Of a stretch of DNA of 64,000 nucleotides, positions 26,207 through 50,830 are shown piece by piece (the stretch's first letter is position 1; the number at the start of each line of letters is the position of its first letter). Below the pieces are notes generated by a model that had not been told where the DNA came from, searched no databases, and saw nothing but the letters and a program-made list of their open reading frames with translations. The stretch is taken from contig SVFD01000001.1 in assembly GCA_015057025.1 (NCBI GenBank), forward strand, positions 372,001-436,000. Direction: 5' to 3'. The stretch comes from Lachnospiraceae bacterium. Lineage in GTDB: Bacteria > Bacillota > Clostridia > Lachnospirales > Lachnospiraceae. Both the position numbers and the translations under genes were made by a program.

Positions 26207-26547
26207 ATGCCCGCCCGGTTAGGGCGGGCTTATTTATTGACGGCTACGCGGTTTGTTATATTAATGATTTTGCCTGCATATTTGCGAGTATAGTTAGTGA
26301 AAACTGCGCAGATTATTTTATATTCCAACAGAACGCGCTCTCGCTCGGGTGAAATCGTAACGGACACTAAACTCGTGCTACATTTCTTTTGCACTCGTCA
26401 AGTGCCGACGTTTTCACACGGTTCTTTATGGAATAAAAATATCTGCACAGTATCAAGTAAGATGAAGTGCAAATATGCGGGCAAAAGTAAAGGTACGAAC
26501 CGCGTAGCCTATACGAAGAAATAGCGACGCCCTAACTGAGCGGGCAT
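26207..26547. repeat. Long intergenic palindrome A (about 340 bp)
   Basis: The stretch folds back on itself over almost its full length. The valS terminator (ATGCCCGCC..., 26207) is mirrored at 26528-26547. GGCTACGCGG (near 26242) is mirrored by CCGCGTAGCC (near 26502), and GCATATTTGC (near 26275) by GCAAATATGC (near 26469). The region around TATTCC (26318) is mirrored by GGAATA (26430). The apex holds CGTAACGGACACTAAA (26356) and TCAAGTGCCGACG (26398-26410). The left arm carries an extra GCGCTCTCGCTCGG-like bulge. The 75-codon open frame inside is a by-product of the repeat. It shares its core with palindromes B and C. Confidence 0.85.
26209..26238 (+). terminator. valS terminator
   Basis: GCCCGCCC (26209-26216) and GGGCGGGC (26222-26229) form an 8-bp GC stem with a 5-base loop, followed by TTATTTATT. 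It coincides with the outer left arm of palindrome A. Confidence 0.85.
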
Positions 26548-26572
26548 GGAGAGCTGAAAAAGGAGGTTTTAC

Positions 26573-27193
26573 ATGGGTAAAGAATTAGTTCCTTTCTGGG
26601 AAGAAACATATCGAGACAACAGTGTTTCAACATTTGCAATCACGCCCAATCCAACAGTTAAAGAATTTGAACATTTTCTTAATTTACACTCTCAAATCTT
26701 GGAAGTAGGATGTGGCGAAGGTCAGAATATTTTGTATTTGGCAGAGCAAGGATATTGTAATCTCGATGCTTTTGATTTATCGCAAAACGGAATTGCAAAA
26801 TTAAAACAAAGAGCCCAAAGTATAAAAAATCAAATAAATGCATTTGTAGATGATTTAACTACATATCAATTTAAGAAAAAATATGACATGATTATGTGTT
26901 TCGGAACTTTGCATTTTGTAAGTAAAAAAGATTGGAAGAATTTTATCTGCCGGGCAAAAGAAAATACTAATGTAGGCGGTATACATATTATGCAAATATT
27001 TACGGATGTGGTTCCGGCTTCGGCAGATATTGCCCCTTTTTCAATTGGTCTTGCGAAAGATGAAGAAATAAAAGATTTGTACAGCGATTGGGAGATAGTA
27101 CAATTTAAGTCTTATGTATTCGAGGATGAACATCCTAATGTACCCAAACATCTACACGCTTCCAATAAAATTGTGGCCCGCAGAATAAAATAA
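26573..27193 (+). CDS. Class I SAM-dependent methyltransferase (TehB-like)
   Basis: A 206-residue methyltransferase with the SAM-binding motif I ILEVGCGEG (about 42-50), an acidic residue after strand 2 (LDAFDLS), and motif IV MIMCFGTLHFV. Overall length and N-terminus resemble the TehB/UbiE-like small-molecule methyltransferases linked to tellurite or thiol detoxification. The acceptor is not evident. AAGGAGG lies seven bases before the ATG. It is a stand-alone gene right after palindrome A and opens the accessory region. Confidence 0.8.
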   Translation: MGKELVPFWEETYRDNSVSTFAITPNPTVKEFEHFLNLHSQILEVGCGEGQNILYLAEQGYCNLDAFDLSQNGIAKLKQRAQSIKNQINAFVDDLTTYQFKKKYDMIMCFGTLHFVSKKDWKNFICRAKENTNVGGIHIMQIFTDVVPASADIAPFSIGLAKDEEIKDLYSDWEIVQFKSYVFEDEHPNVPKHLHASNKIVARRIK

Positions 27194-27256
27194 CATCTAT
27201 TTCAATTCCGAAAAATAGCATATAATAAATATATTGATACATAAAAGGAGCACCGT

Positions 27257-28171
27257 ATGAAGTATCCCTACGATAAAGGTTTCCGCAAGGTGGCGTTCAA
27301 TATGCCTTTTAGCGGTTGGATGTGTAAAATGACCCATAAGCCCTTAAAAAGAATGGTGGACAGAATGAAACCACCTAAAGGGGTGATTTTGCGCAATTTT
27401 GCGATTCAGGGATATCACGGCGAATCTATTGATGTAAAAGAAATCACACCGGAGAATCTTACTGATGTTGCAATTTTGGATTTGCACGGAGGTGGCTTTG
27501 GTTATAAAACATCACCCGGACAGTTACAATTTGCCTATGAGTATGCGAAAGCCTTAAATTGCCGCGTTTTTATGCCGGACTATCATTTGCTACCGGACTA
27601 TCCTTTTCCTGCGGCATATGAGGACGTAATGCTTACATATCAGTACATGGTTGACCATGCCACAGAACTTTCGATTAATCCAAGTAAAATCATTGTTTTA
27701 GGTGACAGTGCGGGAGGCGCATTGGCGGCAAATGTATGCAATATGGCGGAAACAAGAGGATTGCCAATGCCTATGTGTCAGGTGCTTATTTATCCTGTTG
27801 TAGACGATGAGATGAATACAGAATCTATGAAGCTTTTTCCGGATACGCCTTTATGGAATGCGAAAAATAATCGTAAAATGTGGCCCATGTATTTGAAGGG
27901 TGTTTCAGAGGAGACACGAAAAATTGCAGTGCCCATTAAAAATCTCTTACCGCAATCTTTGCCTCCTACTTATATTGAAACCGCGGAATTCGATTGCCTG
28001 CATGATGAAGGGCTTGCGTATGCAAAACATATTAAGGGCGTGGCTGAGTGTGTAGAGATAAATGAAACCCAAGGAACAATTCACGGATATGATATTTTGG
28101 CCAAACACCCGATTACTAGAGACAGCGTCAAGAAAAGAATTGATTTTATGAAGAAATATATCAACTCGTGA
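27257..28171 (+). CDS. Alpha/beta hydrolase, HSL-type esterase
   Basis: A 304-residue esterase of the hormone-sensitive lipase family. The oxyanion motif is HGGG (77-80), and the nucleophile elbow is GDSAGG (S151). The third and second triad members are probably the Asp in TAEFDCLHDEG and the His in GTIHGYDIL. No signal peptide is seen, so it is probably intracellular. AAAGGAG precedes the ATG. It is a single gene with its own terminator. The likely activity is hydrolysis of short acyl or acetyl esters, possibly from acetylated plant oligosaccharides, but this is inference. Confidence 0.87.
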   Translation: MKYPYDKGFRKVAFNMPFSGWMCKMTHKPLKRMVDRMKPPKGVILRNFAIQGYHGESIDVKEITPENLTDVAILDLHGGGFGYKTSPGQLQFAYEYAKALNCRVFMPDYHLLPDYPFPAAYEDVMLTYQYMVDHATELSINPSKIIVLGDSAGGALAANVCNMAETRGLPMPMCQVLIYPVVDDEMNTESMKLFPDTPLWNAKNNRKMWPMYLKGVSEETRKIAVPIKNLLPQSLPPTYIETAEFDCLHDEGLAYAKHIKGVAECVEINETQGTIHGYDILAKHPITRDSVKKRIDFMKKYINS

Positions 28172-28197
28172 GTTACTAACTTACGAGTTGATTGTTT
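28162..28197 (+). terminator. Terminator after the esterase gene
   Basis: CAACTCGT (28162-28169) pairs with ACGAGTTG (28183-28190), followed by ATTGTTTT. The stem begins inside the last codons of the esterase. Confidence 0.65.
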
Positions 28198-28376
28198 TAG
28201 TATGGATGCTTTTTACTTAAAAATTAAAATTGTATGTGAATTTATAAACGAGAACGATCGAAAGTAATTAGTGAAAAATAGTGTAAAAATAGTGAAAAAA
28301 TAATGGAATTATTTCTGCTTATGAGATATAATATTCATAGGGTTTTGAATGTATTTTCCATGAAAGAAGGATATAT

Positions 28377-29474
28377 ATGATAAAGGTTGTTTTAACCAAT
28401 GAAATTTTAAAAAGAATATCATCCATTGATGAAAATCGTTTTTCGCTAAATACTGTAGAATTACCGGCGATAACATGGAACAGATTGCGCAAGAATTCTA
28501 AGAAAAAGAGTTCATATGCGTCTAATAAAATCGAAGGAAATCCATTGACCGAGAAGCAGGCAGAAGAAGTAATTGAAAGAGATGAACATAGGCATTTTTT
28601 GAAACCGGAGCAGGAAATACGTAATTATTTTCTGGCATTGAATATGTTGGAAGATAAACTTAAGAAAAAAGAAGCGTTTTCCAAGAAGATGATTCTCGAA
28701 GTGCAGGCTATGGTTGAAAAAGGGGCATCCAAAGAAAAGATTGGATTGAGAGGGCCTATGCCACCGGGAGTACTGTTTGCGGTATATGATTCTGCCAGTG
28801 GAACGCCTGACTATATTCCGCCGGAGTATACAGATATACCTGAATTGTTGGATGAACTGGTAGAATATGTGAATACAACAGATGACCATCCTTTAATCAT
28901 TGCGGCAGTTGTTCATTACCAATTAGTTACCATTCATCCTTTTGAAGATGGGAACGGAAGAACTGCGAGACTTATGTCTGGATATGTCATGGATTTGTAT
29001 GGATATGGTTTTAACGGAATCGGTTCTTTGGAAGAATATTTTGCTTATGACCCTGAAGAATATTATGAATCACTTCAGATGGGATTGCCGGCGCTATATT
29101 ACTCGGGAAGAGCGAATCCGCCCCAACCTGAAATTTGGGTAAATTATTTTCTTCGTATGGTAGAGTTATATTCAAAAAAGGTATATGAAATATCAACAGG
29201 TGCACAAGAGGATGATCTGGATGGCAGTTTGTCTTATTTGAATGCGAAAGAAAAGGATTTTCTTGCACTTCTTTTAAAAAAACGATTATTGGAGTTTACG
29301 CCTATAGAAGTAAGTAAAATAATGGGTGTAACCAATAAAACCGTTATTAACCGATGCGCAAAACTTGCGAATCATGGGTTTATAATTCCCAATATAGTAA
29401 ATCAAAGAATACGTTCGTATTCGTTAAGTGAATTTACGCGAAGGAATGAAAAGAAAATAATTTCAAAGATTTAA
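28377..29474 (+). CDS. Fic-domain protein with N-terminal inhibitory motif and C-terminal winged helix
   Basis: A 365-residue Fic protein. The catalytic Fic motif HPFEDGNGRTAR (187-198) is complete. An N-terminal helix carries SNKIEG (49-54), matching the (S/T)xxxE(G/N) inhibitory motif of class II Fic proteins, where the Glu blocks ATP binding until relieved. The last 70 residues look like a winged helix (FTPIEVSKIMGVTNKTVINR). Such proteins AMPylate targets or themselves. No antitoxin gene is upstream, consistent with internal inhibition. The spacing to the next gene is short, suggesting cotranscription. Confidence 0.9.
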   Translation: MIKVVLTNEILKRISSIDENRFSLNTVELPAITWNRLRKNSKKKSSYASNKIEGNPLTEKQAEEVIERDEHRHFLKPEQEIRNYFLALNMLEDKLKKKEAFSKKMILEVQAMVEKGASKEKIGLRGPMPPGVLFAVYDSASGTPDYIPPEYTDIPELLDELVEYVNTTDDHPLIIAAVVHYQLVTIHPFEDGNGRTARLMSGYVMDLYGYGFNGIGSLEEYFAYDPEEYYESLQMGLPALYYSGRANPPQPEIWVNYFLRMVELYSKKVYEISTGAQEDDLDGSLSYLNAKEKDFLALLLKKRLLEFTPIEVSKIMGVTNKTVINRCAKLANHGFIIPNIVNQRIRSYSLSEFTRRNEKKIISKI

Positions 29475-29502
29475 GTTGGTGTTTCATTTTTTAGGAGAAA
29501 AC

Positions 29503-29940
29503 ATGACAGCGGAACAAATCACTCTTTTAAAAGAATTCGGCTTCCAAATCGGAGAGAATGATCATCGAGGCAGAACGCAGATTTATTGCGAAAACATCCC
29601 TGATTTATTGTCGCTGGAGATGCTCATTTTAACTATGACTTTCCGAGATGAAATCAATTATTGGGATGCGGATTGGTACTCGCCCACAGACCCCGGCGGT
29701 TATGTCAGTGCACTTCGTTTGGATAATGAGCGTGTGGCATATAAGGAAGGAAATCACGGATGGACCAGCCACTGGTATATTGTCACAATCAAAGAGATGG
29801 CGGAGCATATACAGAAGAATTGGAACAAGGATTATGACCGGGGGAAATTTCTGAATTGTATCTGGATTGAGCCGAACGACCACATAACAAAGGATAAGAT
29901 ACGCGAAAAAATCAGCAAAGAATCAAAGTTATCATTTTAA
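29503..29940 (+). CDS. Conserved-looking hypothetical protein
   Basis: A 145-residue soluble protein with many Trp and Tyr residues (INYWDADWYSPTDPGG, GWTSHWYIVTIKEM). I do not recognise the family. The ATG at 29503 has AGGAG upstream; an in-frame TTG at 29476 lacks one. It lies between the Fic gene (28 bases upstream) and an acetyltransferase (15 bases downstream), and all three may share a transcript. A functional link to Fic is not shown. Confidence 0.65.
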   Translation: MTAEQITLLKEFGFQIGENDHRGRTQIYCENIPDLLSLEMLILTMTFRDEINYWDADWYSPTDPGGYVSALRLDNERVAYKEGNHGWTSHWYIVTIKEMAEHIQKNWNKDYDRGKFLNCIWIEPNDHITKDKIREKISKESKLSF

Positions 29941-29955
29941 GGAGAACTATGCAGT

Positions 29956-30519
29956 ATGACTGAAAAAGATAAAATGTTAAAAGGTGAATGGTATGATGCC
30001 AATTTTGACGAGGAATTGGTGGAAGTGCGAAGAAAGGCAGAGACATATTGTTATGATTTTAATATGGCAAGACCGGGAAGTGATGTGCAGAATAATGCTT
30101 TAAGAGAGTTGCTTGGCGCGGAGATTCCGGAAGGCGTTACCGTTTTGGCACCGGTGTATTTTGATTACGGAAACTATACCAAGCTTGGCAAAGGCACTTT
30201 TGTAAATCACGGCTGCTATTTTATGGATGGCGGTACCGTTACAATAGGCGAGAATGTATTTATCGGGCCGTTTTGCGGCTTTTATACGGCAACCCATCCA
30301 ATGAACTATACAGACCGAAATAAGGGGCTTGAGAAGGCATTGCCCATCACGGTAGGCGATAACTGCTGGTTTGGTGCTAATGTATCCGTAATGCCCGGAG
30401 TCACCATCGGAAGCGGATGCGTGATTGCGGCAGGCAGTGTGGTAACGGAAGATGTGCCGGACAATTCCATGGCGGCAGGCGTGCCGGCTGTGGTGAAGAA
30501 AGAAATTCAGCAGAAGTAA
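29956..30519 (+). CDS. Sugar O-acetyltransferase, maltose/galactoside type
   Basis: A 187-residue left-handed beta-helix acetyltransferase. The N-terminal Mac domain (about 5-58) is followed by hexapeptide repeats (VTIGENVFIGP, ITVGDNCWFGANVSVMPGVTIGSGCVIAAGSVV). The active-site His is probably in YTATHP. Members transfer acetyl from acetyl-CoA to a sugar hydroxyl, usually for detoxification of non-metabolised sugars. Size and order are typical of Maa/LacA. Confidence 0.9.
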   Translation: MTEKDKMLKGEWYDANFDEELVEVRRKAETYCYDFNMARPGSDVQNNALRELLGAEIPEGVTVLAPVYFDYGNYTKLGKGTFVNHGCYFMDGGTVTIGENVFIGPFCGFYTATHPMNYTDRNKGLEKALPITVGDNCWFGANVSVMPGVTIGSGCVIAAGSVVTEDVPDNSMAAGVPAVVKKEIQQK

Positions 30520-30615
30520 AATATTGATAAAATGTAGCAAGAAATGATAGTTAAAATTGTTTAAATAAAAGAACAAACGACAATTCAATCATAGATGTAT
30601 TTGGAGGGAAAGCAT

Positions 30616-31194
30616 ATGAGTATTTTAGATACCATCAGTAAAAGACACAGTTATCGTAAAACCTACAAACCCGACCCTGTACCCAGAGAGGATTTGGTTA
30701 AAATTATGCAGGCGGGATTGGATGCGCCTTCCGGTTGTAATAAGCAGACCGTAAGCTTAATCGGTGTTGACGACCCGGAAGTTCTTGCGAAGCTTCATGC
30801 AGTGATTGACCCGCCTCAGGGCGAGACCGCGCCTGCCATGATTTGCGTACTTTCGAAAGAAAGAATTGCCTACGCAAACAGATGCTTTGCAGTGCAGGAT
30901 TATTCCGCTGCCATTCAGAATATGCTTCTTGCCATTGTAGAACTCGGGTATGAGAGCTGCTGGTACGAAGGTCATATTACGGATGAGGACAGAATTTGTG
31001 ATAAAATGGCTAAAATATTAAATGTCCCTGACGAATATAACTTAGTGTGTATGCTTCCTGTTGGTATCGCGGCTGAGGAGGTCAGCGGTCCGAGAAAACG
31101 TTCCTTTGAACAGAGAGCGTGGTTTAATTCGTTTCCGACGGAAGAAGAATATAAACAAATTTTTGAGAGAGCAGGCGTAAAGCCCCCGAGGTAA
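30616..31194 (+). CDS. Nitroreductase-family flavoprotein
   Basis: A 192-residue FMN-dependent nitroreductase-like protein. The N-terminus (ISKRHSYRKTYKPDPVPREDL) and the DAPSGCNKQ segment are typical. AIQNMLLAIVELGYESCWYEG and MLPVGIAAEE mark the flavin-binding half. I place the start at ATG 30616 behind GGAGGG at 30603-30608; the ATG at 30595 would include that site. The substrate is not predictable. It ends two bases before the next gene, so the two are coupled. Confidence 0.88.
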   Translation: MSILDTISKRHSYRKTYKPDPVPREDLVKIMQAGLDAPSGCNKQTVSLIGVDDPEVLAKLHAVIDPPQGETAPAMICVLSKERIAYANRCFAVQDYSAAIQNMLLAIVELGYESCWYEGHITDEDRICDKMAKILNVPDEYNLVCMLPVGIAAEEVSGPRKRSFEQRAWFNSFPTEEEYKQIFERAGVKPPR

Positions 31195-31196
31195 TT

Positions 31197-32036
31197 ATGA
31201 TTCAGCACCCTATCAATCCCATATATGATAAAGACTCTAAAATATTAATTCTTGGAAGCTTCCCTTCGGTTAAGTCCAGGGAAGCAGGGTTCTTTTACGG
31301 GCATCCGCAGAACCGTTTCTGGAAGGTTACGGCAGCAGTCTGCGGTGTAGAGACACCAACCACAATTGAAGAGAAGAAAGCATTTCTTTTAGAGCATCAT
31401 ATTGCGGTTTGGGATGTGATTCATTCCTGTGATATTATGGGCTCATCAGACAGCAGTATTAAAAATGTGGTTACGAATGATTTGAATATAATCCTAAAAA
31501 CTGCAGATATTCGTCAAATATACGTAAATGGCAAAAAAGCAGAAGAACTGTATAAAAAATACATTTATCCGAAGATTCAAAGAGGGGCTATCTGTCTTCC
31601 TTCCACAAGCCCTGCAAATGCGGCGTGGAGTGTAGAAAGGTTGACTGAAGCGTGGAAGTGTATAAAGAAGGAGGGAGATTGTATGGATATTAAGGCATTA
31701 GAAATTATGATGTGGGAAGCGGCCAAGAATAGAGATGCCAAAGCATTTCTGGAAGTGGTTCGCGAAGATGCTGTTATGGTGTGTGGTGGTTATCGTTGTA
31801 GCGGTGCCGAATATGCCGGCATAATTGAAGAATTTGATTTGGAGAAATATGAAATTTCAAATTTTGAGGTTGTTGAACAGAGTACGGATTTGTGTCAGGT
31901 GCATTATGTAATATCTACTTTCGTTTCGGATGTGAGAAATAAAGATTTAGAAGGAAGGTTTCATATAACTTCAACATGGAAATGTGTTGAAAACATATGG
32001 AAACTGATTTTTAACATGGATTCACGAATTTTATAA
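31197..32036 (+). CDS. DNA-deoxyinosine glycosylase joined in frame to an NTF2/DUF4440-like domain
   Basis: Residues 1-160 match hypoxanthine/deoxyinosine-DNA glycosylases of the uracil-DNA glycosylase superfamily (LILGSFPSVKSREAGFFYG, HPQNRFW, LPSTSPANA). They would remove deaminated adenine. Residues 163-279 look like a SnoaL/DUF4440 NTF2-fold domain (MMWEAAKNRDAKAFLEVVRE). At the junction lies AAGGAGGG (31668-31675), then an in-frame ATG at 31683, eight bases from the GGAGG. The second part may therefore also be made as a separate 117-residue protein, or the pair arose by loss of a stop codon. The start overlaps closely with the nitroreductase gene. Confidence 0.8.
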   Translation: MIQHPINPIYDKDSKILILGSFPSVKSREAGFFYGHPQNRFWKVTAAVCGVETPTTIEEKKAFLLEHHIAVWDVIHSCDIMGSSDSSIKNVVTNDLNIILKTADIRQIYVNGKKAEELYKKYIYPKIQRGAICLPSTSPANAAWSVERLTEAWKCIKKEGDCMDIKALEIMMWEAAKNRDAKAFLEVVREDAVMVCGGYRCSGAEYAGIIEEFDLEKYEISNFEVVEQSTDLCQVHYVISTFVSDVRNKDLEGRFHITSTWKCVENIWKLIFNMDSRIL

Positions 32037-32090
32037 TAAAAAAACAGATACTCAAGAAGCATTGTACATATTTTAAAGGGATAACAATGA

Positions 32091-32319
32091 TGGACACAAG
32101 TAAAAATAAATCATAAAAAATACATAATCGCGGTTTTGATTTCTCATATCATTGCGCTTTTGGCCGGAATAAAATCGATGAGCAAGTTGCTCATCGATCC
32201 GATTATGTCTATTGCGGTTGCGTTATTCATTTTTAACAATGCCATTAAGAATCTGAAAAGAGCATTGCCACGTGGAGTATGAGGCATCGACAGGACATCA
32301 TCACCACCATCATCACTAA
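32091..32319 (+). pseudogene. Remnant of a cation diffusion facilitator-like transporter
   Basis: Read in the frame of 32121, this gives a hydrophobic stretch with a DPIMSIAVALFIF segment followed by a basic end. This resembles a membrane helix of CDF zinc/cobalt exporters. There is a stop just upstream (32088) and another at 32280. A different frame then carries seven His codons and a stop (32296-32319), suiting a His-rich metal-binding tail. The pattern suggests a decayed, frameshifted gene fragment. The family assignment rests on one helix, so it is tentative. Confidence 0.45.
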
Positions 32320-32580
32320 TGCGGAGATTCGGGCTTGATATATCAAATTACGACAGAAAGTCTGAAATAATATATTGTCCTAAAATGAATAAGAAAGAGT
32401 GACAGAGTATGAAATTTTATGAGTTCAGAAAAAAATGATTTAACACTTCTTTTGCTTCGCGGTGTGGCTACTACTTGGCAACTGAGTTTTAAAAAATTAA
32501 TTCAACTGGCCAAGCTATGAAGCACTAAATCTGTTATTTCAATTACAAATATAGACCTTTTCAAATGTATCATTCAATGC
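32320..32580. other. Non-coding or decayed intergenic stretch
   Basis: There is no convincing gene. A 33-codon frame from 32419 to 32520 lacks a ribosome binding site and recognisable similarity. Base composition is AT-rich with scattered stops, in keeping with decay of the accessory region. Confidence 0.4.
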
Positions 32581-32620
32581 TATAATATCACCAGTATTAT
32601 GGTTTATGAGGAATTGACGT

Positions 32621-34039
32621 ATGAAGAAGTTAAGCCAATTTCAAAAAAATATGATAGCTGTAGTGGTGGCAATTATTATTACTGTGCTTGCTATGGTAGC
32701 AGTTTATACTTGGTCATTGCATTATAATAAGGCGGACAGGCAGGTAAGTTTATCGGATGGCAGATTTGACGGAGAAAAGTATGCTTTTTCGGATTTTACC
32801 GTGCAAATAGGACCTCGAGGCGGTGATAGCGGGGCCTGGTTAAAAGATCCGATTTATGACGAGGCCGGCAATGAAATTCATGGTGCCAGCGTGGGAACCA
32901 TTTATGAAATCATTCTCTACAATGCGTCGGATGCTACCATTACCGATTGGGAGATGGAAGTATTTGTCCCGGAATATATGTGGTTAAATAATGCATGGAA
33001 CGGAACAATGGAATTACGACAGACCACTACGGGAGAAGAATTGGTCCAGGAATTGGATTTGAGCGAGTATACCCAAAAAGAAATTATTTTGGATTATTAC
33101 TTAGACCATACCGGTCCTATGATTCCGATGAACGAGGGAGACAGTTTCGTATATATCCCAAGTCAGGCAGATAATGAGATGCCATTGGTTCCGTCAGAAG
33201 AAGATAAAGATGTTAAGGATAAAGCGATTGTAGGTTTTATCATTTATGTGCCGGATCAGACCTTGGATTATGTGGCAGTTTTTGATGAAGCAGTGATTAC
33301 TTATCATATGCAAAAAAGTGTTTGGGACTATCCTGTTTTTGTGTTTTTGCTTGTGGTATTAAGTATATATGTTGTTATTTTTATTACGTTGGTGGTATCG
33401 CAGATTCGCGTTAATAAATTATTAAGGCAGCAGAAGCATGATGCACAGATTATTGAGCAGTCTATCAGTACTTTCATTAATTTTATTGAAGCAAAAGACC
33501 CTCATACCAAAGGTCACTCGGAGCGTGTTGCCCGCTATTCTTATTTGCTGGCACAGAAGATGGGATATTCAGAGAGAGAATGTAACAGAATTCGCTACGT
33601 TGCCCTGATGCACGATTGCGGAAAAATCAGTATTCCGGTTTCAATTTTACAGAAAAAAGGGAAATTGACGGAAGAGGAATATGAAGTGATTAAGAGTCAT
33701 ACCACTTACGGTAATCAGATGTTGCGAGATTTTTCTTCTATTGACGGAATTAATACAGGTGCATTATATCATCATGAAAGATATGACGGAAAAGGTTATC
33801 CGGCAGGTATTTCCGGTGAAGAAATTCCTATGATTGCCCGAATTATCGGCGTGGCGGATTCTTTAGATGCCATGAACAGTAATCGTTGCTATCGTCCGCG
33901 TCTGACTAAAGATGTGATTATAAAAGAATTGCTCGACAATAAGGGTAAGCAGTTTGATGCAACGGTTGTTGATTATGTTATTGAGTTAATCAACGAGGGT
34001 AAAATTATTATCGGCGAAGAAGTAACAGAGACAGAATAA
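32621..34039 (+). CDS. Membrane HD-GYP phosphodiesterase with a CBM2-like outer domain
   Basis: A 472-residue protein with an N-terminal membrane helix (about 10-30), an outer domain (about 35-232), a second helix (about 240-265), and a cytoplasmic HD-GYP domain. The HD motif is H331/D332 (MHDCGKISIP), with HHERYDGKGYP ending at P394, so c-di-GMP hydrolysis is likely. The outer domain has the beta-sandwich pattern and Trp spacing of cellulose-binding modules (ITDWEMEVFVPEYMWLNNAW, then a late GFIIY strand). It could be a cellulose or glucan sensor. A TATAAT at 32581 is a possible -10 element. It is monocistronic, with a terminator at its end. Confidence 0.85.
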   Translation: MKKLSQFQKNMIAVVVAIIITVLAMVAVYTWSLHYNKADRQVSLSDGRFDGEKYAFSDFTVQIGPRGGDSGAWLKDPIYDEAGNEIHGASVGTIYEIILYNASDATITDWEMEVFVPEYMWLNNAWNGTMELRQTTTGEELVQELDLSEYTQKEIILDYYLDHTGPMIPMNEGDSFVYIPSQADNEMPLVPSEEDKDVKDKAIVGFIIYVPDQTLDYVAVFDEAVITYHMQKSVWDYPVFVFLLVVLSIYVVIFITLVVSQIRVNKLLRQQKHDAQIIEQSISTFINFIEAKDPHTKGHSERVARYSYLLAQKMGYSERECNRIRYVALMHDCGKISIPVSILQKKGKLTEEEYEVIKSHTTYGNQMLRDFSSIDGINTGALYHHERYDGKGYPAGISGEEIPMIARIIGVADSLDAMNSNRCYRPRLTKDVIIKELLDNKGKQFDATVVDYVIELINEGKIIIGEEVTETE

Positions 34040-34046
34040 TAAAGGA

Positions 34047-34076
34047 AAAGACATCAATCATATTGGTGTCTTTTTT
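34047..34076 (+). terminator. Terminator after the HD-GYP gene
   Basis: AAGACATC (34048-34055) pairs with GGTGTCTT (from 34065), followed by a T run. Folylpolyglutamate synthase begins 21 bases later. Confidence 0.8.
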
Positions 34077-34096
34077 AGAGAGTTTAAGGAAATTAT

Positions 34097-35595: not shown

Positions 35596-35608
35596 AGGAT
35601 AAGAAGAC

Positions 35609-42422: not shown

Positions 42423-42565
42423 TGGTAAAAAATGTGAATGCGTATATTTTGTGAAAAGAAAATATTTTATATTTGTTTTTTGTGAAAAGAATGATATAAT
42501 GATTAGAATTGGTTAAGAAATAGTTAAGAAAATATATGCATAAAATAACGATTGGAGAGAAAACA

Positions 42566-43537
42566 ATGAGTATTTGGTTGGCAATTTTGTTATTGGTTGT
42601 AGGTTTTGCCCTTTTGATTTGGGGTGCTGATTTCTTTGTAGACGGAGCAAGTAAAGTGGCAGACCGTATGAAGATTCCTCAGATTGTAATTGGTCTTACC
42701 ATTGTAGCTTTCGGCACCAGTGCACCGGAAGCGGCAGTGAGTATTTCGGCCGGTTTGAAAGGCAGTGCGGACTTGGCGGTAAGTAATGTTGTGGGTAGTA
42801 ACATTATGAATATCTTTGTAATTCTTGGTCTTGCGGCAGTAATTACACCTTTGGCAGTGCAGAAGAATACCAGAAAAATTGAGATGCCTTTTGTTATTGT
42901 AACAACGTTGCTTATGATGTTTCTTGGTATGTTTGACGGCAAGCTTGCTTGGGTAGACGGTTTGATTCTTTGGGCATGTATGATTGTTTTTATGGTATAT
43001 CTGTTAAAAACAGCTTTGAGCGGAAAGAACAATACGCCTGCGGAAGAGCCTGAACCTGAAAAGAAGAAAGCTCCTGTCATTTGGTTGATTGCCAAAATTA
43101 TTATCGGTGGTGTGGCAATCGTATTCGGTAGTGATTTTGCGGTAGACGGAGCAACTGCTATTGCTACCTCCATGGGTTGGAGTGAACGTTTAATCGGTCT
43201 TACCATTGTTGCTCTTGGAACATCGCTTCCTGAACTTGTAACTTCCGTAATTGCGGCATGTAAGAAGAAAGCGGATATTGCTATCGGTAACGTAGTGGGA
43301 AGTAATATTTTTAACGTACTTTTCGTACTTGGTACTACAGCATTGATTACCCCTGTGGCTTATCAGAATGCGTTTATTGTAGATAATATTGTTGCTGCAG
43401 TTGCGGCATTGCTTTTATTCCTCTTTGTGCTGAATAAAGATTGTAAGTTGAAACGTTGGGGCGGCGCGGTGCTCCTTGGCGCGTATGTAGTATACTTTGT
43501 GTATTTGATGATTAATCCTTTTGGATATGGTGTATAA
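42566..43537 (+). CDS. Sodium/calcium exchanger family protein, copy 2
   Basis: A paralogue of the preceding gene with the same length (323 residues) and nearly the same sequence at both alpha-repeat motifs. Differences concentrate in the central acidic loop, which here reads AEEPEPEKKK. The ATG at 42566 follows GGAGA and gives the same N-terminus as copy 1; an upstream ATG at 42536 adds ten residues and has no better site. It looks like a recent tandem duplication in which each copy keeps its own terminator. Both are probably calcium or cation antiporters. Confidence 0.93.
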   Translation: MSIWLAILLLVVGFALLIWGADFFVDGASKVADRMKIPQIVIGLTIVAFGTSAPEAAVSISAGLKGSADLAVSNVVGSNIMNIFVILGLAAVITPLAVQKNTRKIEMPFVIVTTLLMMFLGMFDGKLAWVDGLILWACMIVFMVYLLKTALSGKNNTPAEEPEPEKKKAPVIWLIAKIIIGGVAIVFGSDFAVDGATAIATSMGWSERLIGLTIVALGTSLPELVTSVIAACKKKADIAIGNVVGSNIFNVLFVLGTTALITPVAYQNAFIVDNIVAAVAALLLFLFVLNKDCKLKRWGGAVLLGAYVVYFVYLMINPFGYGV

Positions 43538-43554
43538 AAAGAAGTTAATAATTC

Positions 43555-43600
43555 ATAATAAAAGTGCCGAAAGTTCTTTGTTTTTCGGCACTTTTATTAT
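43555..43600 (+). terminator. Terminator after exchanger copy 2
   Basis: A long stem (AAAAGTGCCGAAA against TTTTTCGGCACTTTT) encloses a short loop, with A and T runs on both sides. Confidence 0.9.
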
Positions 43601-43610
43601 GCCCATACGC

Positions 43611-43639
43611 TTGCAAAACTTGACTTTTTCGTGTAAACT
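43611..43639 (+). promoter_or_regulatory. Candidate glgP-malQ promoter
   Basis: TTGCAA (43611-43616) and TAAACT (43634-43639) lie 17 bases apart and about 47 bases before the glgP start. The match is moderate. Confidence 0.4.
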
Positions 43640-43685
43640 ATTGAACGTATGAGTAGATGTTTTTATGTAAGAAAGGAAGTTAGAA

Positions 43686-45998
43686 ATGTCAGTACAGTCT
43701 GAAATGATTCAAAAACAACTTTTAGAAGCGAATATGGAAACAGAGCTTTTGCAAACTGCAGAAAGACTTTACGGCAAAAGTCTTAAGGATTGCAGCGAAG
43801 CTGAGCTTTATTATGTATTGTTGAGTTTTACCAAGGATATGTCCAAGGTAACAGAGCCTATTGTAGGAGAGAAGAAGGTTTATTATATCTCAGCAGAATT
43901 CCTGATTGGTAAGCTTCTTTCCAATAATTTAATTAACTTAGGTATTTATGACCGTGTAAGCGATATTTTAAAAGCAAACGGCAAGGACCTTAGTAAGGTA
44001 GAAGAATTCGAGCCGGAACCTTCTTTAGGCAATGGTGGTCTCGGACGTCTTGCGGCTTGTTTCTTGGATTCTATTGCAACCTTAGGGCTGCCCGGAGACG
44101 GTATTGGTTTAAATTATCATTTCGGTCTTTTTAAGCAGGTATTTAAAGATTACAAGCAGTGCGCCGAGAAGAATGACTGGATTGAAGAACAGTCTTGGTT
44201 AAACCGCACAGATGTAAGCTTTGATGTAAAATACAAAGATTTTACAGTGAAATCAAGATTGTTTGATATTGATGTAATCGGTTATGAAAACGGTGTTAAC
44301 AAGCTTCATTTGTTTGACTTAGAGAGCATTGATGAAAGTCTTGTAAAGGACGGCATTGATTTTGACAAGGAAGATATCGAGAAGAACTTAACATTGTTCT
44401 TGTATCCTGATGATTCTGACGAAGCAGGTAACTTACTTCGTATTTATCAGCAGTACTTCATGGTAAGTAATGCGGCTCAGTTGATTCTTCACGAGATGAA
44501 GGAACGCAAGTATGATTTGAGAAAGATGTATAATCATGCAGTAATTCAGATTAACGATACCCATCCTACTATGATTATTCCTGAGTTGATTCGTATCCTT
44601 ACCGAAGATAAGGCAATCAGCATGGATGAGGCAATTGAAATTGTAAGCAAGACTTGTGCATATACAAATCATACAATCTTAGCGGAAGCTCTTGAAAAGT
44701 GGCCCTTAAAGTACTTAGAGAAGGTTGTTCCTGCTTTAGTACCCATTATCAAGGAATTGGATAAGCGCGTAGCTGCAAAGTATGATGATCCGAAGGTACA
44801 GATTATCGATAAAGATGAGCGTGTACATATGGCTCACATTGACATTCACTACGGTTTTGCAATTAATGGTGTAGCAGCACTTCATACCGATATCTTAAAA
44901 GATAGCGAGTTGAATGCTTTTTATAAGATTTATCCTGAGAAGTTTAACAACAAAACAAACGGTATTACCTTCCGTCGTTGGTTATTATCTTGCAACCGTG
45001 AGCTTGCAGAATATATTACTTCTTTAATTGGTAACGGCTACAAGAAGGATGCTGACGAACTTGAGAAGCTTTTAGCTTATAAAGATGATGAAGAAGTTCT
45101 TGCTAAATTGGAAGAAATCAAGAAGGGTAAAAAGGCTGAACTTGCGGCTTACATTGCTGAAAATGAAGGCGTTACACTTGATACAGAGTCAATCTTTGAT
45201 ATTCAGATTAAGAGAATGCATGAGTATAAGCGTCAGCAGATGAATGTTTTATACATCATTCATAAATATCTTGAAATTAAGGCAGGTAAGAAGCCTGTAC
45301 GTCCTCTTACTTTTATCTTTGGTGCGAAGGCAGCGCCTGCATACATCATTGCACAGGATATTATTCATTTAATTCTTGTAATGCAGGAAATCATCAATAA
45401 TGATCCTGAAGTAAGCCCTTATATGAAGCTTGTTATGGTGGAGAATTACAATGTGGCTTACGCGCAGCGTTTGATTCCGGCATGTGATATCTCAGAACAG
45501 ATTTCACTTGCAAGTAAGGAAGCTTCCGGTACCGGTAACATGAAGTTTATGTTAAACGGTGCGGTAACACTTGGTACAGCAGATGGTGCGAACGTAGAAA
45601 TTCACCAACTTGTAGGTGATGATAATATCTACAAATTCGGTAAGTCCAGTGAAGTGGTTATCGAGCACTATGCAAAGGCTGATTACGTATCTAAGGATTA
45701 CTATAAGAACAGCCCTGTTATCAAGGAAGCAGTTGATTTTATCGTAAGCAAAGAAACATTAAAGGTTGGTCACAAGGAGCAGTTAGAGCGTCTTTACAAT
45801 GAATTGTTGAATAAAGACTGGTTCATGACTTTGCTTGACTTGGAAGAATATATTGAAGTAAAAGATAAGATGTTTGCAGACTTTGAAGACAGAGGAAAGT
45901 GGAGAAGAATGATGCTTGTAAATATTGCAAAGGCAGGTTTCTTCTCATCAGATCGTACTATTGCTGAGTACAATCGCGATATCTGGAAGTTGAAGTAA
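43686..45998 (+). CDS. glgP: Glycogen/maltodextrin phosphorylase
   Basis: A GT35 enzyme that releases glucose-1-phosphate from alpha-1,4-glucans, 770 residues. The N-terminal region has [16 protein letters not shown]. The PLP-binding Lys is K620 within [20 protein letters not shown], and RIHEYKRQ-like [16 protein letters not shown] is present. It is slightly shorter than the E. coli and mammalian enzymes, as usual for Firmicutes. AAAGGAAG precedes the ATG. It forms an operon with malQ 21 bases downstream. Together they convert storage or maltodextrin glucan into glucose-1-phosphate and glucose. Confidence 0.96.
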
Positions 45999-46019
45999 CA
46001 AAACATCGGGGGGATTAAA

Positions 46020-47498
46020 ATGGTTAGAAAGAGCGGAGTTTTACTGGCAATCAGCAGTTTGCCGTCGAAGTACGGTATTGGTTGTTTTTCGAAGGAAGCG
46101 TATGATTTTGTAGATTACCTGGTGGCAGCAGGCCAGCATTACTGGCAGGTGCTTCCCATGGGACCTACCGGTTACGGCGATTCGCCGTATCAGTCCTTCT
46201 CAACCTTTGCCGGAAATCCTTATTTTATTGATTTGGAAGATTTGATTGAACGTAAGTGGTTGACGGCGAAAGAATGTGATGCGGTTGACTTTGGCGATAT
46301 GGAGCAATACGTAGATTACGAGAAAATTTACAAAGGAAGATTTAAATTACTCCGTAAGGCTTATGAGAGATCCAATATTGCTGAAAATGAAGACTTTATC
46401 GCTTTCTGTGAGGAAGAAAAGGACTGGCTGCCGGATTATTGTCTTTATATGGCAATCAAGGATGAAAATAGCGGTAAAAGCTTTATAGAATGGCCGGAGA
46501 AGCTTCGCATGAGAGATAAAAAAGAAATTGCGGTGGCGAAACGCCGTCTTGCAACTGAGATTGAGTTTTATGCCTTTTTACAGTATATGTTTACTTTGCA
46601 GTGGCTTTCTATTAAAGACTATGCAAATGATAAAGGTATTGAAATTATTGGGGATATTCCTATTTATGTGGCATATGACAGCGCAGATACATGGGCGAGA
46701 CCGGAATTATTTCTCTTGGATGAAGAAGGATATCCTACCGGCGTAGCAGGCTGTCCCCCTGATTATTTTTCAAAGACCGGTCAGTTGTGGGGAAATCCTT
46801 TGTATGACTGGGATTACCACGAGGATACTGAATTTGAGTGGTGGATTGACAGAATGGCACAGTGCTTTAAATTGTACGATATGGTGCGCATTGACCACTT
46901 CAGAGGCTTTGATGAATACTACAATATTCCTTACGGTGATGAGACTGCTGAGTTTGGTGAGTGGGAGTACGGACCGGGGTTTGAGTTGTTCCGCGCTATG
47001 AGAGAGGCTTTGGGTGATAAGCCGATTATTGCAGAGGATTTGGGACTCTTAACAAAATCGGTCATTCGTCTTGTAAAACGTACCGGTTACCCGGGAATGA
47101 AGATTTTAGAATTTGCTTTTGACTCCAATGAAGAGAATGATTATCTTCCGCATAATTTTATAAGAAATTGCGTGGTATATACAGGTACTCATGATAATGA
47201 TACGGTGCAGGGCTGGTATGCGTCTGCAAACAGAAATGATAAGAAGCAGATTAAGGCTTATCTTGGCGTGCCTAACAGTAAAAATCTTCATTGGGATATG
47301 ATTCGTTTGGCAGAAGCCAGCGTTGCAGATACTGCGATTATTCCCATGCAGGATATTTTAGGTCTTGGTTCTGAGGCAAGAATGAATATTCCTTCTACCA
47401 TGGGATTAAACTGGAAGTGGAGATTGCTTCCCGGACAGCTGAAGGATGAAGATGCCGCACAGCTTTATGAAATGACGAAGGTGTACGGCAGATTATAA
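46020..47498 (+). CDS. malQ: 4-alpha-glucanotransferase (amylomaltase)
   Basis: A GH77 enzyme of 492 residues that disproportionates maltooligosaccharides. The catalytic residues appear as D292 (VRIDHFRGF), E339 (IIAEDLG) and D392 (GTHDNDT). The N-terminus (SGVLLAISSLPSKYGIG) and LPMGPTGYGDSPYQSFSTFAGNPYFID are highly typical. GGGGG lies about eight bases before the ATG. It is the second gene of the glgP operon and is followed by palindrome B. Confidence 0.96.
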   Translation: MVRKSGVLLAISSLPSKYGIGCFSKEAYDFVDYLVAAGQHYWQVLPMGPTGYGDSPYQSFSTFAGNPYFIDLEDLIERKWLTAKECDAVDFGDMEQYVDYEKIYKGRFKLLRKAYERSNIAENEDFIAFCEEEKDWLPDYCLYMAIKDENSGKSFIEWPEKLRMRDKKEIAVAKRRLATEIEFYAFLQYMFTLQWLSIKDYANDKGIEIIGDIPIYVAYDSADTWARPELFLLDEEGYPTGVAGCPPDYFSKTGQLWGNPLYDWDYHEDTEFEWWIDRMAQCFKLYDMVRIDHFRGFDEYYNIPYGDETAEFGEWEYGPGFELFRAMREALGDKPIIAEDLGLLTKSVIRLVKRTGYPGMKILEFAFDSNEENDYLPHNFIRNCVVYTGTHDNDTVQGWYASANRNDKKQIKAYLGVPNSKNLHWDMIRLAEASVADTAIIPMQDILGLGSEARMNIPSTMGLNWKWRLLPGQLKDEDAAQLYEMTKVYGRL

Positions 47499-47511
47499 AG
47501 GTATAAGTAAA

Positions 47512-47682
47512 TATAATAAGGTGGACGCCCCGAAATATATCTATATTCTTCTTATGCACGTTCTCACTCTGTGAAAAACGTAGCGGTACATAAGGTTGTA
47601 AAAGACACAACCTAAGTACCGACGCTTTTCAAAGGCATGCGAAGAATATAGATATATTTCGGGGCTGTTTTACGTTATTATG
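47512..47682. repeat. Long intergenic palindrome B (about 170 bp)
   Basis: A perfect 25-bp inverted repeat (47527-47551 and 47641-47665, starting GCCCCGAAATATATC) is extended outward by ATAATAA/TTATTAT. The apex contains GTAGCGGTACATAAGGTTGT (from 47580) against ACAACCTAAGTACCGACG (47607-47624). The right strand keeps the CTAAGTACCGACG core also found in palindrome C. It lies between convergent malQ and the CYTH gene and contains no gene. Confidence 0.88.
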
Positions 47683-47731
47683 AAAAAATATGTAAGCAAT
47701 ATTTAAGTGATAAAAACAAATGATAATAAAT

Positions 47732-47777
47732 AATGCCGTACGCTGATTGGTGAAATTGTGTACGGCATTTGTTTTAT
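47732..47777. terminator. Bidirectional terminator between malQ and the CYTH gene
   Basis: AATGCCGTAC (47732-47741) pairs with GTACGGCATT (47760-47769). T runs follow on the plus strand and A-rich sequence precedes it for the minus strand. Confidence 0.75.
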
Positions 47778-47788
47778 TGAATATAATT

Positions 47789-48235
47789 TTAGAACATCTT
47801 ACTAAGCTCTGAATTTGAGAAGGAGCGGTCTTCGGTCACATCTTTTTCAAACCACGCAGGTGGAGTAAAAGCATTGGCTTCCTCGATGCTTTCAAATTCT
47901 ACTTCTGCAAGTACCAAAGGTGCCAGAGGCGCTTCGAATACGTCCAATTCAATAGTGAGTTTCTCATTGTAAGGAATGCGATAACGCTTCTTGGAAATAA
48001 TCAGACCGTCGGCTTTTTCGCGTAAGTGGTAGTAGGCATCTTCGTTTAAGGGGAGATTGTATTCTTCTCTGGCAAGGAAGCCTTTTCCTTTGTACGTAAG
48101 ATAAAAGTCGTCATTTTCGCGGCGGACGCGGACGACAGGATTGGTATTTAAATAAGCTTGCTCGAGAGTGAGACAAGGGTACTGTTCTAAGTTGCTTGGT
48201 AACTTGTTTATTGTAAATTTTCTTTCAATTTCCAT
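47789..48235 (-). CDS. CYTH-domain protein (triphosphate tunnel metalloenzyme family)
   Basis: A 148-residue CYTH protein. The signature MEIERKF starts at 48235 on the minus strand behind AAGGAG. A longer frame back to 48295 adds 20 unlikely residues. Alternating charged beta strands (VRVRRENDDFYLTYKGKG, LTIELDVFEAPLAPLVLAEVEFES) form the tunnel that binds triphosphates. Members include adenylate cyclase class IV, thiamine triphosphatase and inorganic triphosphatase; which one applies cannot be told. It is a single gene, convergent to malQ. Confidence 0.88.
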   Translation of the reverse strand: MEIERKFTINKLPSNLEQYPCLTLEQAYLNTNPVVRVRRENDDFYLTYKGKGFLAREEYNLPLNEDAYYHLREKADGLIISKKRYRIPYNEKLTIELDVFEAPLAPLVLAEVEFESIEEANAFTPPAWFEKDVTEDRSFSNSELSKMF

Positions 48236-48393
48236 AGGGGCTCCTTTTTTTGAATTGAATAAATGTGCCGGCGAGTACAAACATCCTTCAAACATAATGT
48301 TTATGGCATCAGCAACATATTCTTCACATCACAATTATAGCAGAAAAGCGTGTACATATACAAGAAAGGAAAGGGTTTTATTCAAAAACAGGA

Positions 48394-48404
48394 TATGGTA
48401 TAAT
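48394..48404 (+). promoter_or_regulatory. Extended -10 element upstream of the mgtC-like gene
   Basis: TGG directly precedes TATAAT (48399-48404), 46 bases before the ATG. The -35 region is weak. Confidence 0.4.
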
Positions 48405-48449
48405 GTATGCAAATAAAATGAGCCAGTTAGCTTCGAAAGGAGGTATCCT

Positions 48450-49151
48450 ATGACTTGGTTAGAGGCTTTAAGTGATTTTAATGTAATTTCGGTTGTGGTG
48501 CGCGTGTTTCTGGCAATGTTTCTTGGCGGATGTATTGGTTTGGAACGCGAGAAGAGTAAACGGCCGGCAGGGTTCCGCACACATATTTTAGTGTGCGTAG
48601 GTTCTTGTATGACAGCGCTGATAGGTTTGTATGTGGTGTATGTTATGGGGGCAACTTCGGATCCTTTACGTATTGCGGCGCAAGTTATTTCCGGAATTGG
48701 TTTTCTTGGTGTAGGAACTATCCTTGTCAAAGAACACGATCACATTACAGGACTTACCACTGCGGCAGGACTTTGGACTACGGCGGCAATCGGTATTGCC
48801 TGCGGTTACGGCTTTTATATTGGTGCATTGCTTGGTACTTTGGTTGTGGCAATTACCTCTGCGATTTTATATAAGCTGGAAGGAAGAGGGCGCAAGAAGA
48901 ATCGAAAGGTGACCTTGTACATAGAAATAGAAGGTTTGGATTGCTTGAATGAGTACATTGATTGGATTAATGATACATACAAGGCAAGAAGTGTTACCGT
49001 GGTTGCACCGAGAAGTGCAACTCTCGGAAATGTAGGCTTAGAAGCGGTGTTGCCGGTAGTTGGTAATGAGGATATGAAAGTAGTGCTTGAGACTGTGAGA
49101 AAGAAGGAAAACGTGGTATTTGCTATGGAAAGCGTAAAGCGGGAAAAGTAA
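48450..49151 (+). CDS. MgtC/SapB family membrane protein
   Basis: A 233-residue protein with four to five N-terminal membrane helices and the MgtC hallmark GGCIGLEREKSKRPAGFRTHIL. A soluble C-terminal domain of about 85 residues follows (KVTLYIEIEGLDCLNEYIDW), resembling an ACT-like fold. The family is linked to magnesium homeostasis and control of ATP synthase in pathogens; its function in commensal Firmicutes is unclear. AAAGGAGG is placed well. Confidence 0.9.
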   Translation: MTWLEALSDFNVISVVVRVFLAMFLGGCIGLEREKSKRPAGFRTHILVCVGSCMTALIGLYVVYVMGATSDPLRIAAQVISGIGFLGVGTILVKEHDHITGLTTAAGLWTTAAIGIACGYGFYIGALLGTLVVAITSAILYKLEGRGRKKNRKVTLYIEIEGLDCLNEYIDWINDTYKARSVTVVAPRSATLGNVGLEAVLPVVGNEDMKVVLETVRKKENVVFAMESVKREK

Positions 49152-49189
49152 AATTGCAGGTGTAAAGCAGGCAAGGGAGCGTCTTATTT

Positions 49190-49588
49190 ATGTGGCTTTT
49201 ATTTATATTGTTTCAGGAATTTTACATTCCGATTGTATTAGGACTTTTTGCCGTAGCGGCATTGCTTTTTGTTATTGTAGGATATTTTGCGAAGAAAAAA
49301 AGTCTTATATGGATTTCAGGAAGCACTTTGGCTTTTTTGATCATTGGAATTGTGGCGTTTTTTATATTATTCCCTACAGAGTTTCCATATGTAGATTTAT
49401 GGGTATTCGGTAAAACCAAAGAGCAGATTATAGAAGTGTATGGTGAGCCTGAGTATAATGAATATAGGGAATTGGCGTATGAAACAAAATGGATATTTTT
49501 GGATATGTTTTATTATGTCATAGAATTTGATGAGGACGGGAGAGCATATAAAATGTATGAATCTACGTATGTGGGCCCGGGAGGCTGA
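49190..49588 (+). CDS. Small membrane protein, unknown function
   Basis: A 132-residue protein with two N-terminal hydrophobic helices (about 2-30 and 37-60). A soluble C-terminal half follows, with an SmpA/BamE-like start (WVFGKTKEQIIEVYGEPEY), a pattern common in small lipoproteins and membrane proteins. It lies 38 bases after the MgtC-like gene, probably in the same transcript, and ends at a strong terminator. Confidence 0.65.
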   Translation: MWLLFILFQEFYIPIVLGLFAVAALLFVIVGYFAKKKSLIWISGSTLAFLIIGIVAFFILFPTEFPYVDLWVFGKTKEQIIEVYGEPEYNEYRELAYETKWIFLDMFYYVIEFDEDGRAYKMYESTYVGPGG

Positions 49589-49620
49589 TAAAGGGTTAAA
49601 GTGAAGAATGAATAATCAAA

Positions 49621-49652
49621 AATGCATCCTGTTAAAAGGATGCATTTTTTTA
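49621..49652. terminator. Bidirectional terminator
   Basis: AAATGCATCC (49621-49630) and GGATGCATTT (49639-49648) with flanking A and T runs can serve both the plus-strand membrane protein gene and the minus-strand cysK. Confidence 0.88.
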
Positions 49653-49689
49653 AATAAAAGTTATAAGTTAATAAAGCAGATACTATAAA

Positions 49690-50592
49690 TTAAATCAACG
49701 CAGTACTGAAATATCTCTCAACTCTGTCAGGAAGGATAGTTGCAATTACTTTATCCTTGCCGTATTTCTCGGCCATCTTCTTGGCTGCCCATACATTGGC
49801 ACCTGCTGAGGTTCCGCAAAGTAAACCTTGAACCCGTGCCAATTCTCTAGCGGTTTCAATGGCGTCTTCATCGGTTACTTCCACAATATCATTAATAATA
49901 GACACATCTAAAATATCGGGGATAAAACCATCGCCTATGCCCTGAATCTGGTGAAGACCGGGTTCGTCACCGAGAAGCGCGGATACGTTCTTAGGTTCTA
50001 CCGCAACAATCTTGGTGTTGGGGTTCTTTTCTAATAAATATTTGGATACACCCTGTAATGTTCCGCCGCTGCCGATACCGGAAACATAGATATCAATCTG
50101 TTGACCAAGCTGATCGCAAAGTTCAACGGCAGTGGTTTTATAATGAATATCAGGGTTTGCAGGGTTTTGGAACTGCTGAGGTACAAAATACTTATCAGAA
50201 GAAGCAGCAATACGTTCCGCTTCTTCTACAGAACCGCCGATGCTTAATTCGGGAGGTGTTAAAATAAGTTCTGCACCTAAAGCGCGAATGATTTTCTTGC
50301 GTTCTTCACTCATATTTTCAGGCATAACGATAATTACCTTGTAGCCCTTGCGGATGCCGCAGAGTGCAAGACCGATACCGGTATTGCCGGAAGTAGGTTC
50401 AATAATGGTCATGCCGGGTTTTAATTTGCCGGATTTCTCGGCTTCGTCCAACATATTCTTGGCAATACGGTCTTTGATACTACCGCCGGGGTTTAAAAAC
50501 TCGGCTTTGGCAAAAATATTCAACCCTGTTGTTTCTTTTAAAGAAATCAAGGGAGTGTTTCCGATTAAGTCTAAAACGTTTGTGTAATACAT
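49690..50592 (-). CDS. cysK: Cysteine synthase A (O-acetylserine sulfhydrylase)
   Basis: A PLP enzyme that makes cysteine from O-acetylserine and sulfide, 300 residues. The PLP Lys is K40 in NPGGSIKDRIA. The substrate loop is PTSGNTGIG (about 67-74), and the cofactor phosphate loop is GIGSGGTLQG. The start is at 50592 on the minus strand. A long palindrome begins 26 bases upstream of the start and may lie in the leader. Confidence 0.95.
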   Translation of the reverse strand: MYYTNVLDLIGNTPLISLKETTGLNIFAKAEFLNPGGSIKDRIAKNMLDEAEKSGKLKPGMTIIEPTSGNTGIGLALCGIRKGYKVIIVMPENMSEERKKIIRALGAELILTPPELSIGGSVEEAERIAASSDKYFVPQQFQNPANPDIHYKTTAVELCDQLGQQIDIYVSGIGSGGTLQGVSKYLLEKNPNTKIVAVEPKNVSALLGDEPGLHQIQGIGDGFIPDILDVSIINDIVEVTDEDAIETARELARVQGLLCGTSAGANVWAAKKMAEKYGKDKVIATILPDRVERYFSTALI

Positions 50593-50617
50593 AGTGGCTC
50601 CATTTCTTCATAGTGAA

Positions 50618-50830
50618 GTCTTTTCAGATGCAGGGGCGCAACTCTTTCATGGATATTTTACTTTCTCTTTCAGACGCGCTCGCGCTCGGTTTCGTGCGTA
50701 ACGGATACTAAGCTCATGAAACAAATTAATTTGTTCATTCGCTAAGTACCGACGTACTCAAACGGTCTTCAATAGAAATGTAAAATTCCATTCAGAGTTT
50801 GCAAAACATACTGCAATTCTCTGAAAAGAC
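50618..50830. repeat. Long intergenic palindrome C (about 210 bp), upstream of cysK
   Basis: GTCTTTTCAG (50618) is mirrored by CTGAAAAGAC (ending 50830), and the arms match with small bulges along most of their length. The apex holds CGTAACGGATACTAAGC (50697-50713) and GCTAAGTACCGACG (50741-50754). The left arm carries GCGCTCGCGCTCGG as an unpaired insert, like palindrome A. It is shared in core with palindromes A and B and contains no gene. Confidence 0.85.

Follow-up and report, generated by a model that had tools for sequence, protein, structure and literature searches.

Why would three intergenic palindromes of one bacterial genome share their tips and differ in their arms? The question is raised by a stretch of 64,000 nucleotides from a Lachnospiraceae bacterium (contig SVFD01000001.1, positions 372,001 to 436,000 of the forward strand), referred to here as the window, in which the segments 26207-26547, 47512-47682 and 50618-50830 had been described, from the letters alone, as long intergenic hairpins with a common apical core. 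The hairpins are present at these positions, and their folding lies beyond that of all dinucleotide shuffles, with z scores of -10.8 (100 shuffles), -9.8 (200) and -6.4 (200), respectively; no shuffle matched the real folding of any of the three. The analysis described here indicates that they belong to a real, widespread and apparently undescribed family of fold-back repeats, which comes closest to REPINs and miniature inverted-repeat transposable elements (MITEs) in its behavior but does not show all of the features that define either. The best explanation overall, held with middling confidence, is that of non-autonomous fold-back repeats occurring throughout Lachnospiraceae, which would spread at the level of DNA and of which some copies would be under selection.

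Size and distribution of the family

A degenerate pattern of the core was run on the genome from which the window comes (2.65 Mb, 97.9% complete) with the reversed pattern as a control, and yielded 26 sites, as opposed to none for the control. Of these sites 25 are real; the twenty-sixth (L008) overlaps a tRNA-Thr gene, has no model match and was rejected. A fold filter kept 108 of 253 pattern matches, and since some of the 108 were plainly due to chance, a covariance model was used afterwards. This model, R1, was built from an alignment (A2) of the 25 own copies and 71 copies from other genomes; A2 was selected by the exact core pattern, so that its invariant core is partly ascertained, while a further alignment, A3, was selected by R1. 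With a cutoff of E <= 0.1, the search with R1 detected 39 copies in the genome, three of which lie within the window, and even the weakest copy reached 6.9e-15; the many further copies to be expected of a true family thus exist. Relatives of the same genus carry 58 (G001), 46 (G006) and 19 (G020) copies.

Beyond the genus, R1 matched 69 of 150 genomes sampled from the taxonomic family Lachnospiraceae, no more than 24 candidates being scored in each genome. In a sample drawn from the whole order, 18 of 196 genomes were positive, all 18 of them within Lachnospiraceae (158 genomes without a match are counted here but not itemized). The highest copy numbers, 137 and 80, were found in G144 and G072, which belong to two other genera. 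Named records that contain the family are mostly labelled Lachnospiraceae, and include Butyrivibrio, Oribacterium, Mediterraneibacter, Agathobacter and Acetatifactor; the family occurs across many gut and rumen Lachnospiraceae. One good copy (82 bits) stands in a record titled Candidatus Gastranaerophilales (L057), likely a wrong bin or label.

An origin in phages was considered, as the first phage matches were stool contigs labelled 'Bacteriophage sp.', and was rejected, the reading frames looking, by eye, like chromosomal housekeeping genes. Two of these records (L027 and L029) contain the element, and a third (L028) has a weak match of 26.7 bits; the genes that surround the element in L027 and L029, which come from a phage collection, resemble those of a bacterial chromosome, and the records look mislabelled. 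In a scan of viral contigs, the 120 stretches listed (L159-L278) include one weak, partial model match (L180, 22.7 bits), for which reason the remainder are attributed to chance. When one G144 copy was used as the query against plasmids, there were no matches.

No named family was thought to fit these hairpins, and none was found. A search of the whole window against Rfam release 15 at gathering thresholds returned tRNAs only, and at lenient thresholds the sole overlap with a hairpin was mir-1277, whose 31.2 bits fall short of its threshold of 81 and are read as chance; a search of the open-licence literature retrieved no description of the family. Two Rfam RNAs, TwoAYGGAY and Clostridiales-1, occur within about 1.1 kb of G072 and G144 copies (L344, 1121-1299, and L396, 2647-2800), TwoAYGGAY about 200 nt from a hairpin copy; the proximity of both is probably a coincidence.

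Anatomy and covariation

The element is organized in layers. Outermost is a long stem whose sequence is variable between copies, followed by a three-way junction with a mini-hairpin, GC-YYYC-GC, on the left strand alone. Inside the junction lies a short stem whose sequence varies freely, both sides together, and further inward the conserved core, in which CGU, a two-base bulge (AR) and CGG face CCG-ACG on the partner strand. The apex is of two types: class A, ..CATAAGG..CCTAAGTA, and class B, ..CTAAACTCG..CTCGTTAAG. The apical domain that is conserved takes up about 117 positions of the model. By eye, a GGAC motif lying beyond the model had also looked conserved, but it was discarded as not general (30 seen, 22 expected).

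The paired stem changes that had been noticed among the three window copies hold for the family. In A3, which was aligned to R1 and hence leans towards its structure, 89.3% of cells are paired, as compared to 67.7% after shuffling and 30.3-37.0% with partners slid; 30 of 31 pairs show two-sided change, and the covariation score is 0.594 vs 0.211 for shuffled and at most 0.097 for slid alignments. In A3 the core pairs, too, vary on both sides (for instance U-A 101, C-G 19).

The three copies in the window

All elements are given on the plus strand. Copy 1 (26207-26547; inverted repeats I1 and I3; 84.5 bits) lies between valS, which ends at 26199, and a methyltransferase-like gene that starts at 26573. 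Its model-matched core, with a class B apex, spans 26320-26446, and includes a mini-hairpin, GC-TCTC-GC, on the left strand at 26337-26344 (A3 pairs 18-59 and 19-58) and the left core CGTAACGG at 26356-26363, which pairs with CCGACG at 26405-26410, AA being bulged. Copy 2 (47512-47682; inverted repeat I2; 106.7 bits) is situated between convergent genes identified by domain matches, a malQ-like gene that ends at 47498 and a minus-strand CYTH-domain gene that ends at 47789. Here the core, with a class A apex, spans 47543-47660, with the mini-hairpin GT-TCTC-AC at 47560-47567 and the left core CGTAGCGG at 47579-47586, paired with CCGACG at 47619-47624. Copy 3 (50618-50830; 84.4 bits) lies between two minus-strand genes, also recognized by domain matches, for a PALP enzyme (start at 50592) and a GH94 protein (end at 51130); its class B core covers 50661-50790, the mini-hairpin GC-TCGC-GC lies at 50678-50685, and the left core CGTAACGG, at 50697-50704, pairs with CCGACG at 50749-50754.

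The common apical core is thus borne out, with the exact left core in all three copies and CCGACG on each right strand. The extra left-arm bulge, which the sequence-only reading had assigned to two members, is instead present in all three; the version in copy 2 reads GTTCTCAC, a C-G pair being replaced by T-A. The same reading held the outer arms to be unrelated, and arms do differ at most sites, but inner arms are common to some copies (L010, L012 and L023, by reading).

Placement and the level of pairing

Own-genome copies sit at gene 3' ends, past the stop codon or terminator. By gene context, 16 of the 39 are ++, 12 are --, 10 convergent and 1 divergent, whereas convergent and divergent gaps stand at 3:3 in the window and 29:37 across the loci used as controls; G072 has 13 convergent copies and none divergent, and G144 has 6 and 1. 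Where the upstream gene is on the same strand, its stop lies within 60 nt of the model in 14 of 26 own copies, and a classical terminator intervenes in 9 of 26, so that 23 of 26 have one or the other. On the other side, facing a gene of opposite strand, the stop is within 60 nt in 8 of 22 own copies and a terminator is present in 1 of 22.

Whether such hairpins act as DNA or as RNA should be visible in their mismatches. In RNA, A-U and G-C pairs interchange via G.U. Among 10333 Watson-Crick pairs of 161 elements, single stem mismatches comprise 70 G.T and 92 A.C (8:16 in the own copies, 44:49 in the named set, 5:20 in G072 and 13:7 in G144), while the stems of 27 tRNAs from the same loci contain 28 G.T and 4 A.C. 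The aligned core of A3 has 113 G.T and 89 A.C, with 80 of the G.T cells concentrated at three pairs. Since G.T does not outnumber A.C in these stems, whereas it does in tRNAs, a DNA-level hairpin is favored over an ordinary RNA. On the whole, pairing appears to be mainly at the DNA level, and the outer arms may have an effect as RNA. The idea of processed small RNAs, implicit in the sequence-only reading, is not favored either, as there is no excess of G.U over A.C and copies occur in both orientations to neighboring genes.

Several observations weigh against the explanation preferred here. At one conserved pair (columns 86-131) 22 sequences have U.G and none has A.C, and another pair is U.G in 48. 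In the own genome and with 40-nt flanks added, folding is better for the gene-transcribed strand (++ vs --, p 0.001), a hint of an RNA role; the difference is not significant when flanks are omitted (p 0.18) or in the wider set (p 0.31). Double changes that preserve pairing cannot by themselves tell selection from templated correction. In the named set, with 17 convergent and 14 divergent copies (14 of 82 divergent), divergent gaps show no sign of being avoided, so that 3'-end placement is not general. Comparisons of empty and filled sites revealed no target duplication at a clean empty site, and no mobilizing enzyme was found, the families searched being Y1 and RVT_1.

Part of this evidence would be expected if the family were a structured RNA of 3' untranslated regions, a hairpin in the mRNA that would stabilize its 3' end, make ribosomes slow down close to the stop codon, or be bound by an RNA-binding protein. 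The conserved U.G pair, the very strong covariation, the better folding of the transcribed strand in the own genome and the left ends near the 3' ends of same-strand genes all agree with such a role, and REPs that lie no more than 15 nt from a stop codon have been reported to downregulate translation (PMC12306157). Nevertheless, tolerance of G.U is not seen even in the ++ copies (15 G.T, 14 A.C), and in 12 of the 39 own copies the element is antisense to the genes on either side, which leaves this explanation a doubtful one.

Dispersal

Recent dispersal is shown by G072 and G144, where near-identical 118-bp cores with shared arms, in copies with definable ends, adjoin different genes. In G144, copies also form tandem arrays (C41:7064-7774 and C59:97546-98159) with constant spacings of 148 and approximately 164 bp. 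The mobile-like character proposed from the window alone is therefore supported by near-identical copies in these two genera and by presence/absence differences within the genus, but many copies of this genus are old and vertically inherited. In the comparison of 57540-57955 with G006, no clean empty site is seen and other insertions lie on both sides. Within the window, at 57600-57740, another small repeat, AACGAGGCAAGCGACC, occurs twice, with inverted neighbors; the same gap holds a hairpin copy in G006.

Could the repeats be ordinary MITEs of one transposase family, with TA targets for example, and the hairpin core their passenger? TA target sites are linked to known transposases. The G072 unit has inverted ends (AAACTGYAG...), both as a single hairpin of 216-217 bp and as a composite of two opposed hairpins of 491-496 bp (L565 and L570, for example). 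A T directly precedes AAACTG in 24 of 29 G072 ends among those listed, the border thus being marked by T or TA, and the host stop codon falls exactly at the unit border in 15 of 37 copies; as the unit starts with A, insertion at TA would leave a TAA stop intact. However, the ends of G144 differ from those of G072, own-genome copies have no common ends, and a conserved interior is the reverse of what a MITE displays. This makes an ordinary MITE improbable.

Profile searches for Y1_Tnp (PF01797) found no match in the own genome, G006 or G072, one in G001 and two in G144, and those for RVT_1 (PF00078) found none in the own genome, G001 or G006; a RAYT, retron or group II intron partner in this genome was thus rejected, neither domain having a match. 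Among 1384 reading frames from 254 loci, grouping revealed no common neighbor, the widest cluster (17 loci) being an ABC ATPase by eye.

Old copies and the evolution of arms

Within the genus, an alignment was obtained for 20 of the 27 ortholog comparisons that were attempted, and many copies are therefore considered to be old and vertically inherited. Two-sided changes in these alignments kept a Watson-Crick pair in 98 cases, gave G.T in 6 and broke the pair in 41, and 245 changes were one-sided. For 16 of 17 ortholog pairs (one, with distant sequence more than 93% identical, was excluded), identity was 0.85 within the core, as compared to 0.69 for flanks of 60 nt and 0.81 for sequence more than 400 nt away, some distant values being low as a consequence of contig ends; the core differs from the flanks (p 0.0008) and not significantly from distant sequence (p 0.33). 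As these alignments indicate, conservation of the core in orthologous copies roughly equals that of sequence more than 400 nt off, while the arms change on both sides.

The malQ locus, which holds copy 2, illustrates the variety of outcomes. In G001 the element is present with arms that are different yet perfectly matched; in G006 the arms are kept around a decayed core (27.4 bits). The hairpin of G020 is short and simple, those of G015, G004 and G369 are plain and terminator-like, and in G019 no hairpin was seen. At the valS locus, the intrinsic terminator of the gene (26207-26238, plus strand), found after valS in L297, forms the outermost left arm of copy 1, and the right arm ends in an inverted near-copy of it (26528-26547, minus strand; 18 of 20 bases, loop included), which is more diverged in G006. 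From its sequence, copy 1 is one case of host sequence copied inverted into an arm, and it is the one direct example of the arm 'growth' that had been envisaged as an alternative to insertion. That the elements are host terminators enlarged at the loop, with arms that are terminator stems and a core inserted between them, is nonetheless hardly probable: the plain hairpins at the place of copy 2 in four relatives (by reading), the valS arm and the T-rich run at the end of some copies would suit it, but a separate classical terminator precedes the element in 9 of 26 cases and, by reading, many right ends, indeed most, have no T run.

A proposed model of fold-back spread, and its meaning

Non-autonomous fold-back spread, the reading preferred here, may be pictured as follows. 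The element would spread as a folded single DNA strand or a cruciform on which a putative enzyme acts in trans, the apex, rather than the termini, being recognized and hence conserved. Insertions would survive chiefly past stop codons and terminators, the sites of least harm. Once in place, DNA-level processes, namely quasi-palindrome template switching or the inverted copying of flanks, could keep the arms complementary, and selection would maintain some of the copies, probably because the hairpin marks or protects a gene's 3' end. A more specific proposal, which we regard as tentative and on balance unlikely, is that the apex is a folded-DNA recognition domain for a Lachnospiraceae protein, and that fold-back spread or growth copies neighboring sequence in inverted form, so that the tip is inherited while the arms are remade at each site; the centre would then be conserved and the ends would not.

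A repeat family of up to 137 copies per genome, which extends across many genera of one of the major families of gut and rumen and has no Rfam entry, is of interest in several respects. It offers a natural test of whether complementarity is maintained at the DNA or at the RNA level, and the high-copy genomes are places in which to seek the mobilizing enzyme. If copies affect mRNA 3' ends, they would have a bearing on gene expression in these bacteria, and if arms grow by inverted copying, they would constitute a natural record of template switching.

Comparison with known systems

Bacterial MITEs, such as Correia/NEMIS elements, are short, non-coding, dispersed sequences with inverted ends. 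The hairpin family is likewise short, non-coding and dispersed, and has inverted ends in G072; it differs in that its interior is conserved family-wide while the ends are lineage-specific. ERIC/IRU elements are long imperfect palindromes, intergenic and often transcribed. Compared by description only, they share with the family the form of a long, imperfect, intergenic palindrome and differ in host group.

REPs and REPINs, mobilized by RAYTs, are described as dispersed extragenic palindromes that fold as single-stranded DNA, with compensatory changes and tandem clusters of near-identical copies (PMC3116915), and the likeness is considerable, compensatory hairpin changes being found here as well. 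The differences are of three kinds: Y1_Tnp matches are lacking in the own genome, G006 and G072 although the hairpins are present; two inverted, invariant 16-mers at the ends are not seen, conservation lying instead at the apex; and the window hairpins are larger, at about 170-340 bp. Finally, candidate structured RNAs from the human microbiome (PMC8040213) include palindromic intergenic elements, some of which are not terminators. The four palindromic candidates named there are mostly or entirely from Bacteroidetes, unlike the hairpins of Lachnospiraceae, but the 3161 candidates of the same study may well contain the present family among those left unnamed.

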